A program made the translations under genes and the position numbers. A DNA stretch of 54,247 nucleotides, from positions 1 to 54,247 of the forward strand of contig JAFTJQ010000003.1 in NCBI GenBank assembly GCA_017456285.1, read 5' to 3'. This stretch comes from Lentisphaeria bacterium. Lineage in GTDB: Bacteria; Verrucomicrobiota; Lentisphaeria; Victivallales; Victivallaceae. The notes beneath the pieces were generated by a model, which ran no database searches, had not been told where the DNA came from, and worked only from the letters and a program-made list of their open reading frames with translations. Positions 24,012 through 27,442 of this stretch are shown piece by piece; position 1 is the stretch's first letter; each line of letters starts with the position of its first letter.

Positions 24012-24680
24012 TTACTTAAATTCTAAAATTTCCCAATTGTTTTTTTCTGCTAATTCCCGCAATGCTGCCGAAGGATTAACCGCATAAGCTTTGCCGACCG
24101 CCTGCAAAATATTTGCATCATTGATACTGTCGCCATAGTAAGCCATATCGCTTAAAGCAACTCCTCGCTGTCGGCAAAATTCCTCTGCTTTCGTCACTTT
24201 TCCTGCTTGAGCGGCATATATTCCGTCAATTTTTCCGTCAAATTTGCCATTTTCGTCAATTTTTAATTCCGTCCCCCAAAGCCCGTCAACTCCGAAAAAT
24301 TCGGCGACACTTTCAGCAATAACAGTATTTGTTGAGGTCAAAATATAGACTTCACAGCCATTTTTTTTCAAATCCTGAATGCGTTTAATCGCAGAATTAT
24401 AAATTTTAGGTTTAACTATTTTCAAAAAGTGACGGCGACAAATTTCCGTCATTTCCTCATGGGTTTTGCCGATAAATTCATTGAGTTGAAAACGAATAAA
24501 TTCGTCAAAATCCAATTCTCCGCGATTATAATCATCAAAAAATTTATCAGCTAATTCCAAATCGGATTCGGGGGCGATTTTTTCTGCCACTAAAAATTCT
24601 TTCCAACTGACATCACAATCATTGTTTATCAATGTGTGATCCATATCAAAAAAGTGTATTTTTATTGATTTTTCGTCCAT
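24012..24680 (-). CDS. HAD-IB family phosphatase
   Basis: 222 residues. Motif I is FFDMDHTLIN (nucleophile Asp12 and acid Asp14). Motif II is YILTSTNT. Motif III/IV combines KVTKAEEFC with YYGDSINDANILQAVG. A helical cap (~30-95) places it in the SerB/CicA-like IB group, which dephosphorylates phosphoserine, phospholipids or sugar phosphates; IB members with this pattern are often listed just as hydrolases. It lies 12 bp after the phosphohexomutase, so a sugar phosphate substrate is an inference from context. Confidence 0.85.
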   Translation of the reverse strand: MDEKSIKIHFFDMDHTLINNDCDVSWKEFLVAEKIAPESDLELADKFFDDYNRGELDFDEFIRFQLNEFIGKTHEEMTEICRRHFLKIVKPKIYNSAIKRIQDLKKNGCEVYILTSTNTVIAESVAEFFGVDGLWGTELKIDENGKFDGKIDGIYAAQAGKVTKAEEFCRQRGVALSDMAYYGDSINDANILQAVGKAYAVNPSAALRELAEKNNWEILEFK

Positions 24681-24692
24681 TTTTACCTCGTT

Positions 24693-26072
24693 TCATTCAT
24701 TATCAATAATTTTATTTATCAGCATTTTAAGTTCTTCAAAAAGTTTTTGGGCTTCCTGTAAATCTACACTCTCAACTTGAAGCCGCAGAATTTGTTCCGT
24801 ATTAGATGGGCGAACCACAATCCAAGCGGTCGGAAATTCGATTTTTAAGCCGTCAAATCGGGAAATGTCGTAATTTTTGAAGTGCAGTGAGAGTTTCTCC
24901 ATTACCGTTTTTGCCATTGAGTGGTCGATATTAAATTTATCATTGAAGCCGTAATACTTCGGGAGTTGACCGACAATTTCCGCAATCGTTGCCCCCTGAT
25001 TAACGCTTAACATCTCCAAAATTAATGCCATTGCAGCAAAACTGTCACGACCGTAATGAATTTTGCCGTAAATTACTCCGCCGCAATTGCCTTCACCGCC
25101 GATTTCTGCATGTGATTTAAGCATGGCTTCCACGGAATTGATTTCGCCGACTTTGGCATAAACCACATTGCACCCGTAAGATTTAATAATGTCGCTCACC
25201 ATTTTGCCGGTTTGGAAATTAATTACCACATTGTCGCACTCACTCTGCTCAAGATAGTGTTCTACCGCCAAAGCTAAAGTGTAATGCGGCGATAAAATTC
25301 GCCCATTATTATCCACAATTGTCAGGCGGTCGCCGTCAGGGTCTTGGGCAAAACCGATGTCGCAAGAGAATTTTTTAACAGTTTCTGCCAACTCTCTCAA
25401 GCATTCGCCATTGGGTTCGGGAGTTCGTCTGAAATTGCCGTCGGCTTCACTGTTTATTGCAAAAACTTCGCATCCGAGTTCTCTTAAAAACTTTTCACTG
25501 TAAATTGCCCCGACGCCATTGCAGGGATCTAATGCCACTCGCAGTTTGCGATTTCTGATTGCCTCAATATCAATGTCGGAATTAAAAATTTTATCGGTAT
25601 GAATTTCAAATGCATTATCAAATTTTTCTACGCTTCTTAACAGCGATTCTTTAACAAAATTGAACTCGCCCTGACTGTAAATATCAAATAATTCCTCCGC
25701 CATAATTCGATCCAAAAAACAACCGCTGCCGTCGATGAATTTCAATGCATTAAACTCAATTCCATTGTGGCTCGCAGTAATCGCAATTCCGCCCTTGCCG
25801 CCCAAATGTGTAACCATTAATTGCAATGTCGGAGTCGGAACTATTCCTAAATTTACCACTTCACATCCGACCGCCAGCAAACCTGAACAGACTGCCATTT
25901 CAAACATTTCTCCGCTGCTTCTGGTATCCCGTCCGATAATTATTTTGCCGCCGCCCATGTAATCACCGAAAGCCGATGCCAAATTGCAAACCAATTTCGG
26001 GGTTAAACCTTGCCCCAGAATACCTCTGACGCCGCTCTCTGAAAATTTTAGGTTATGGATAAATTTTTTCAT
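24693..26072 (-). CDS. Phosphohexomutase (phosphoglucosamine/phosphomannomutase family)
   Basis: 459 residues of the alpha-D-phosphohexomutase superfamily, which moves phosphate between C1 and C6 of hexose phosphates. Four domains are recognisable. Active-site serine in AITASHNGIEFNALKF (~Ser104). Metal loop in FAQDPDGDRLTIVD (three Asp, ~235). Sugar loop GEGNCGGVIYGKIHYGRDS (~330). Phosphate-binding RPSNTEQILRLQVES (~425). The sequence does not decide between GlmM and ManB/PMM activity. The ATG overlaps the stop of the degenerate paralogue upstream by one base, and a HAD phosphatase follows. Confidence 0.88.
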   Translation of the reverse strand: MKKFIHNLKFSESGVRGILGQGLTPKLVCNLASAFGDYMGGGKIIIGRDTRSSGEMFEMAVCSGLLAVGCEVVNLGIVPTPTLQLMVTHLGGKGGIAITASHNGIEFNALKFIDGSGCFLDRIMAEELFDIYSQGEFNFVKESLLRSVEKFDNAFEIHTDKIFNSDIDIEAIRNRKLRVALDPCNGVGAIYSEKFLRELGCEVFAINSEADGNFRRTPEPNGECLRELAETVKKFSCDIGFAQDPDGDRLTIVDNNGRILSPHYTLALAVEHYLEQSECDNVVINFQTGKMVSDIIKSYGCNVVYAKVGEINSVEAMLKSHAEIGGEGNCGGVIYGKIHYGRDSFAAMALILEMLSVNQGATIAEIVGQLPKYYGFNDKFNIDHSMAKTVMEKLSLHFKNYDISRFDGLKIEFPTAWIVVRPSNTEQILRLQVESVDLQEAQKLFEELKMLINKIIDNE

Positions 26073-27442
26073 CAGAACTCCAATCTATTTTTGGCGAACC
26101 ACATTCGCTCTTCGGCAATTTTCTCGTCCGATGACTCTGAAATTAAGCGGATAATTTTGTCCGTACTTGAAAAACGGATACTTAAAAAACCGTCCTCAAA
26201 GTCAAATCTGATACCGTCTAATTCACTCACCTGACAGTTTTGAAATAAATTTTTGAAATTCCGCAACTTGGAGTAGCGATGTAATTTTTCGCTTCGAATT
26301 TCCATTTTTTTAATGAAAGTTTGCGGAAGTGCCGCGGCACTTTCGGATATTCGGCACTTCGTTTTTGCCAGTTTCTCCAAAAAGAAGCCGAGCATGTAAA
26401 AACCGTCAAATCCCGGAATCTCACGTCCGTAAGCAAATGACCCCGAACCGTCCCCACCTAAAAATGAGTTTAATAACGGCATTTTTTCGATAATATTGGC
26501 TTCGCCGACGGCAGTTTTTTCAATTTTCCGCTGATATTTTTCGGCGATTCGATCAATCATCGTACTGCTGCAAATATTGGTGCAAATGTATTCCGCGGAA
26601 GTGTCTTTGCTCAAAATATAATCCAACGCCAGCGGAAAGGTCATCTCCTCCGAAAGCGCATGCCCATTCTCGGTAACTATGGCAAGGCGGCTGACATCGC
26701 TATTAAAAACAATCCCGATATCCCCTGCAAGTTGTTCGATAACTGATGCAATAAACTTCCCGGTTTTTGCTGACGGTTCAGGATTTCGGGGGAGAATATC
26801 GCACTCACGCTCGGAATTAACCTTAATTACCTCTAAATTAAAAATTTCGCCGATCCTATCGACAAAGAAACTTCCGCAACCATTACAGCAATCAAAAATT
26901 ACCTTTAAATTAGCTTTCCGAATTGCCTCTGTATCGAAAAAATCACGCAGATAATCAAAATAAGAATCAATTTCAGACTGCTTAATCGGCGTGATTTTTT
27001 TGAGTTCATTTACGGAGACGTAATTAAAAATTTTGCTGTGATAAATATCGTAAAGCTCACGCCGTTCATTGCTGTTAAAATATTCACCGTCGCCATTAAA
27101 GGGGATGATTGAATTCCAGTTCGCATCCTGATGACCACCGGAAATTAAAAGTCCGCCTGCATAATTAAACTTTTTTATGATGAAGTGACAACACCCTGCA
27201 GGTAAAATTCCGCCGTCAACAATTTTTAACCCCATTGACAACAATGAGGAGATTACAGAATTATAGAGCATTTGAGATGATTTACGGTTGTCACGCCCAA
27301 GCAAAATCGGCTTGTCACAGGACTGAAAAAGCATTGCAAAGGCACAGGCGAAATCAGAAACGCTTGAAAGATCCAAGCCATTTCCGACCATTCCACGCAT
27401 TCCGGCAGTACCCAGCCGCAAAATTTTAGCAGATTTTTCCAT
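26072..27442 (-). CDS. Degenerate phosphohexomutase paralogue (probable pseudoenzyme)
   Basis: 456 residues, colinear with the neighbouring mutase along its whole length (GTAGMRGMVGNGLDLSSVSD at the start, RFSSTDKIIRLISES at the end). The catalytic loop TASHNG is here SGGHQD (within LLISGGHQDANWNSI), so the phosphoserine is replaced by Gly. The metal loop DPDGDR is here NSDVSR, losing two of three Asp ligands. The sugar loop reads GGDGSGSFAYGREIPG. The frame is intact, so this is not a recent pseudogene. It may be a regulatory or structural partner of the active enzyme. It overlaps that gene by one base and heads the operon. Confidence 0.85.
   Translation of the reverse strand: MEKSAKILRLGTAGMRGMVGNGLDLSSVSDFACAFAMLFQSCDKPILLGRDNRKSSQMLYNSVISSLLSMGLKIVDGGILPAGCCHFIIKKFNYAGGLLISGGHQDANWNSIIPFNGDGEYFNSNERRELYDIYHSKIFNYVSVNELKKITPIKQSEIDSYFDYLRDFFDTEAIRKANLKVIFDCCNGCGSFFVDRIGEIFNLEVIKVNSERECDILPRNPEPSAKTGKFIASVIEQLAGDIGIVFNSDVSRLAIVTENGHALSEEMTFPLALDYILSKDTSAEYICTNICSSTMIDRIAEKYQRKIEKTAVGEANIIEKMPLLNSFLGGDGSGSFAYGREIPGFDGFYMLGFFLEKLAKTKCRISESAAALPQTFIKKMEIRSEKLHRYSKLRNFKNLFQNCQVSELDGIRFDFEDGFLSIRFSSTDKIIRLISESSDEKIAEERMWFAKNRLEF

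Follow-up and report, generated by a model that had tools for sequence, protein, structure and literature searches.

A catalytically dead phosphohexomutase paralogue conserved beside its intact sister gene in Verrucomicrobiota and Armatimonadota, and its probable role as a partner subunit

Phosphohexomutases, which are regarded as self-sufficient enzymes, supply the synthesis of the cell wall, of glycogen and of polysaccharides. A locus in which an intact member of this family directly follows a copy stripped of its catalytic residues raises the question of what the dead copy is kept for. The locus lies in a member of the Victivallaceae (Lentisphaeria bacterium, assembly GCA_017456285.1), and the window, that is, the whole stretch of DNA analysed, comprises 54,247 nt of contig JAFTJQ010000003.1. 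The relevant features are as follows, and residue numbering throughout is that of gene B.

27442..26072, minus strand: gene A, a phosphohexomutase paralogue (456 aa) that is catalytically dead, transcriptionally upstream of B, open reading frame intact
27142..27125, minus strand: SGGHQD of A, at the site of the phosphoserine loop (TASHN; TASHNG in B), with Ser replaced by Gly and His kept
26704..26687, minus strand: NSDVSR of A, where B has the metal loop DPDGDR, with the outer two Asp lost and the middle Asp and Arg kept
26070..26074, minus strand: TGATG, stop codon of A and start codon of B with one common base (26072), from the sequence
26072..24693, minus strand: gene B, intact phosphohexomutase, 459 aa, downstream of A, open reading frame intact
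25764..25778, minus strand: TASHN of B, phosphoserine loop intact, from sequence and alignment
25326..25343, minus strand: DPDGDR of B, metal loop intact, from sequence and alignment
24012..24680, minus strand: 222-aa hydrolase of the HAD-IB family, lying 12 bp past B (132.6 bits with NCBIfam TIGR01490, whose cut-off is 98.3)

Both open reading frames were confirmed on the minus strand, in agreement with the original prediction of colinear proteins of 459 and 456 residues whose genes have one base in common. In a pairwise alignment, A and B are colinear, with 29% identity over 448 residues (2e-59). Pfam cut-offs were exceeded for PGM_PMM domains I to III in A and I to IV in B; domain IV of A gave no Pfam PGM_PMM_IV match at 0.001, yet its alignment to 1wqa, a Pyrococcus horikoshii mutase, extends through residue 447. 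The best structure match of both proteins is 1wqa, which was matched over the full length (7e-52 for A with phmmer, 1.1e-82 for B), and their best NCBIfam model is TIGR03990 (archaeal-type GlmM / phosphoglucosamine mutase), although A, which is without catalytic residues, falls below its cut-off of 439 (301.1 bits) while B lies above it (459.3 bits).

The roles of the general-base lysine and of the active-site loops are known for the family as a whole. In A of the window, the alignment shows Ser101 replaced by Gly, Asp244 by Asn and Asp248 by Ser, with Asp246 retained; the expected loss of the phosphoserine and of two metal ligands within an intact frame was therefore borne out, and TASHN and DPDGDR were both present in B, as had been claimed. 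A has also lost the lysine that serves as general base (Lys111 of B), which was overlooked at first. His102, Arg249 and the phosphate loop are retained, the R-x-S-x-T-E pattern of the latter being found in A as RFSSTDK, with Asp replacing Glu. A misalignment that masked the serine or the Asp triad was considered and rejected, as aligning the two proteins restores none of these residues in A, and the pseudoenzyme claim survives.

Among 137 genomes of the window's order, A was found in 57, B in 57 and both in 56; in one genome (G022) A is a fragment cut off by the end of a contig, and another (G014) carries B without A. The losses in A are beyond chance, being fixed across the family. The position of Ser101 is occupied by Gly in 55 of the 57 A proteins, by Thr in one and by a gap in one, so that none of the 56 readable proteins has Ser. 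Asp248 and Lys111 were lost in 57/57 and Asp244 in 56/57 (G008 keeps it), while the middle Asp246 was present in all 57. Also retained in the A proteins of the order are H102 and R249, as well as three residues of the phosphate loop (R421, T425 and R430). The B proteins possess Ser and all three Asp in 57/57 and Lys in 56/57. A partial departure was observed in B of three genomes (G033-G035; loci L056, L052 and L057), where TASQH stands for TASHN and DPDGDS for DPDGDR.

Selection on the two genes was estimated from orthologue comparisons with the Nei-Gojobori method, using our own script. Of 21 close comparisons for A, dS was unsaturated in 20, and in these dN/dS was 0.028-0.143, indicating purifying selection and as low as that of B (0.036-0.219 in 21 close comparisons); in the G033-G035 and G056-G058 sets, A was more constrained than B. 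Relatives without A, or with an A decayed by stops, had been named as the mark of a recent degenerate duplicate; this check did not overturn the prediction, and no decayed A was seen. In two genomes of the same genus as the window's (G078 and G079, 87% and 84% complete), neither A nor B was detected at the reach of that search, so that joint loss of the two genes may occur even inside one genus.

Linkage of the two genes is frequent. In 46 of the 56 two-gene genomes of the order, the pair is adjacent with A first, and 33 of these 46 pairs overlap (32 of the 45 besides the window pair), 29 of them by 4 bp; start codons were picked by script close to where they were expected. Contig ends separate the genes in two genomes (G013 and G058), and in eight (G075, G126, G128, G129 and G131-G134), including Victivallis vadensis, they lie apart and are both kept. 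A scan of genome contigs with a single protein as query gave 0 matches and one with an alignment gave 64 loci. Across the phylum, where related genomes make the counts non-independent, the A profile matched 70 of 387 genomes, or 66 after exclusion of four (G002, G014, G195 and G139) that hold only a B or another mutase; the B profile matched 68 of 387. Both genes were found in 65 genomes, B only in three and A only in one, where the locus is cut by a contig end. Outside the order but within the phylum, the Ser position of A is Gly in 17 and Ala in two (19/19), B is intact in 18/18, and Kiritimatiellales and Kiritimatiellae records are among the named matches with a Ser-less A. An A that retains Ser and has lost two Asp was found in G317 (L208). 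As in prozyme-type systems, the dead paralogue is thus conserved together with its active sister.

The pair is not confined to one phylum. In Armatimonadota, a strong match was obtained in 55 of the 251 genomes searched, with A and B in tandem as in Verrucomicrobiota. Thirty-one of the 55 were analysed in detail; A is present in 29 of them, at 30 loci, and all 30 either are without Ser (20) or have Ser with Asp244 replaced by Asn (10). In the 20 Ser-less proteins Ser is replaced by Gly, and 19 of these represent a type I, in which Lys is kept and all three Asp are present in 15/19. A type II (L257-L260, L262, L158 and L216) keeps both Ser and Lys, with NxDGDR as the metal loop, and may be an evolutionary intermediate. 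Of B in the 27 pairs read, 25 are intact and two are Ser-less (G462 and the first pair of G486), and at least one Ser is present per pair in 27/27. In these two Ser-less cases, the downstream gene carries GGSQP (L261, G462) or SGHQP (L263, G486) and the upstream A has Ser, as if the catalytic role had switched genes; G486 also harbors a second pair (L264). Fifteen Armatimonadota genomes, three of which overlap the detailed set of 31, gave a single match, which is an intact solo B in 13 and a pair cut by a contig end in G534. The fifteenth, G548 (L273), carries a type I protein that is the one apparent A without B: the 2.3 kb downstream contain no B, and the rest of the genome yielded none either. 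In Omnitrophota, matches were obtained in 5 of 193 genomes searched, all of them an intact solo B. As B stands alone in many genomes (13/15 in Armatimonadota, five in Omnitrophota), neither the folding nor the chemistry of B generally requires A. The claim of a conserved pseudoenzyme beside an active sister is strongly supported, by tens of genomes in two phyla and by purifying selection.

The antiquity of the pair was examined with phylogenetic trees. In a tree of 119 proteins, the upstream genes form one clade (SH-aLRT 98), and the A subtrees largely mirror those of B; in a tree of 56 rows, the A clade has a support of 96. The branch leading to the window's own A is long (1.01). With all columns, independent duplication was rejected for Verrucomicrobiota (AU p 1.5e-62), for type I Armatimonadota (0.006) and for type II (3e-5). 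After removal of the active-site columns it was still rejected for Verrucomicrobiota (0.0023) but not for type I (0.065), and a single A clade tied with the best tree (0.12 log units, p 0.445), so that one origin of all A genes is, without these columns, neither rejected nor demonstrated. Independent duplications in each group are thus ruled out for the Verrucomicrobiota pairs and, by the all-column test alone, for type II Armatimonadota, and a common origin of the type I genes with the other A genes is likely, though not certain. These tests indicate that the duplication predates the split between the type II Armatimonadota and Verrucomicrobiota pairs, or that both genes were transferred together from one to the other.

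The genes around the pair are of limited help. The HAD-IB hydrolase, which is histidinol-phosphatase-like, adjoins B at 29 loci in 17 genomes, only within the window's family, and also follows B in three genomes where A is elsewhere (G126, G131 and G132). It is the only widely recurring neighbour; the others vary and include SecDF, FliM/FliN, TatC, a glycosyltransferase and a GHMP kinase, and comparison of loci across families revealed no common neighbour of the pair outside one family from which a function could be read. A cluster of 490-residue neighbours proved to be an antisense shadow ORF. Two more mutases are encoded on other contigs of the window's genome: a GlmM of the bacterial type, with 580.7 bits for a cut-off of 447.55, and a protein resembling phosphomannomutase that stays below its cut-offs, and the pair is therefore not the cell's sole candidate for mutase activities.

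Taken together, these results make it probable that A is an ancient, functional, non-catalytic and ligand-binding partner subunit of a hetero-oligomeric mutase formed with B, in the manner of a prozyme or of GMPPA. The catalytic losses and their fixation, the purifying selection, the linkage and overlap, the co-occurrence and the antiquity are observed; the physical complex, the binding of a ligand by A and the sign of any regulation are what we infer. An archaeal-type phosphohexomutase ancestor would have duplicated in tandem, after which the B copy would have remained an active, phosphoserine-dependent mutase and the A copy would have lost phosphorylation and catalytic-metal binding and kept its fold and phosphate-binding loop. 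The two proteins may be co-produced through translational coupling and may assemble into a hetero-oligomer modelled on the domain-1 homodimers of the family, with turnover by B only, and A may stabilise or tune B by binding a sugar phosphate or bisphosphate. A functional link between A and B is suggested by their near-obligate co-occurrence, by the overlap and by the retention of both where they are unlinked. Against this reading, gene overlap is common for bacterial neighbours of any kind, the genes are unlinked in eight genomes, and G548 has an A with no detectable B.

Complex formation was also addressed by AF2 predictions on single chains, at loci where B follows the stop of A in frame and the two can be read through. 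For the Armatimonadota locus L251, whose linker is 37 residues by sequence, the model had a pLDDT of 86.8 and a pTM of 0.79, with the linker disordered. From the pTM formula we estimate that undocked halves would give about 0.52 and that 0.79 needs a mean error of about 7 A between the halves. This model matched the structures 9du5, 1wqa and 2f7l. For L046, in the window's order, where the linker is just 4 residues, the pLDDT was 90.9 and the pTM 0.56, with no docking. Docking of the paralogues is plausible given that the family homodimerises through domains 1, as described for the M-shaped GlmM homodimer in the cited sections of PMC8573169, and the docked pair may echo that homodimer. The predictions lend weak support to A-B docking in Armatimonadota and none in the window's order. 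The pseudoenzyme part of the original prediction stood, and its heteromeric or regulatory part is suggested by the near-obligate co-occurrence, the gene overlap and one of the two fold predictions.

An alternative hypothesis, which we consider unlikely but worth weighing, is that A has taken on a changed function of its own, as an enzyme (for instance of a metal-independent reaction) or as a binding protein (for instance a sugar-phosphate sensor acting on another target), and stays near B only by operon inheritance. In the alignment of the order, from which three truncated A rows and two truncated B rows were omitted, 50 positions are strongly conserved in both proteins, 43 with the same residue and seven with different ones, including S101G, and a further 21 show conservation in A alone; together with the replacement of R342 of B by F, Y, A, H, N or Q in A, and with the eight unlinked genomes, this would fit a function of its own. 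However, A is nearly always accompanied by B (65/66 in the phylum sample, the remaining one being contig-cut), while the surroundings of the pair otherwise vary across families. It is less probable still that A moonlights by regulating some third protein, B being the metabolic source: a family member, GlmM, inhibits the cyclase CdaA by direct binding, according to the cited part of PMC8573169, but no third gene recurs beside the pair except the HAD hydrolase in one family. We give little credence to A as a low or conditional mutase that works without its own phosphoserine, for example with a sugar bisphosphate as phosphate donor; such a role would suit the type I Armatimonadota proteins, where Lys and mostly the Asp triad survive the loss of Ser, but the A proteins of the window's order have lost Lys and two Asp as well. 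A decaying, functionless duplicate, as the missing catalytic residues and the long branch of the window's A might suggest, is scarcely credible and is refuted at the family level by intact frames, dN/dS of about 0.03-0.14, a loss that is itself conserved (Gly in 55/56) and an age exceeding one phylum, although the copy of any one genome could still decay.

The favoured reading, A as a partner subunit, has counterparts in other enzymes. The AdoMetDC prozyme of Trypanosoma brucei is likewise a dead paralogue kept with an active partner; the cited part of PMC5201418 reports an active heterodimer, but this is a different enzyme in a eukaryote, where complex and activation were demonstrated and not, as for A and B, inferred. 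GMPPA, paralogous to the active sugar-phosphate enzyme GMPPB, is itself dead but retains ligand binding and acts as an inhibitor of GMPPB, although the family differs from the phosphohexomutases (PMC11228364, in the section cited). Within the superfamily of A, phosphoglucomutase 5 (aciculin) is inactive and has kept substrate binding; the passages of PMC7761743 cited here, which discuss the TASH motif, metal loop, general-base lysine and phosphate loop of PGM1 and PGM5, present it as a vertebrate structural muscle protein with a conserved metal loop and describe no pairing with an active paralogue, whereas A has lost Ser, Lys and Asp and has an active partner gene. The GlmM-CdaA pair is a regulatory complex of the same superfamily, but there, by the cited account (PMC8573169), GlmM is an intact enzyme whose partner is a cyclase, and here the partner is a dead paralogue. 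A search of open-licence PMC literature, by titles and abstract openings, found no description of a dead bacterial phosphohexomutase partner, consistent with the initial impression that the arrangement was undescribed for this family. A dead paralogue acting as partner is thus known elsewhere and would be new in the phosphohexomutase family, for which that search found no bacterial case in print.

These findings bear on annotation, as A can be labelled a mutase by homology. They also provide a natural gradation, from proteins that have lost only Ser or only Asp to those that have lost both, for studying how an enzyme becomes a regulator, and the pair is open to experiment, since its carriers include two complete Lentisphaerota genomes (zth2 and WC36) and the cultured type strain Victivallis vadensis. 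More tentatively, and with more doubt than confidence, half-dead heteromeric phosphohexomutases may be widespread, with a pair older than the divergence of the Armatimonadota and Verrucomicrobiota pairs, one subunit catalytic and one ligand-sensing, a catalytic role that may have switched genes in G462 and G486, and allosteric control of hexose phosphate flux in both phyla by a subunit of a kind not known from this family. If true, a conserved dead partner would mean that these two phyla have a level of control that has so far gone unrecognised.
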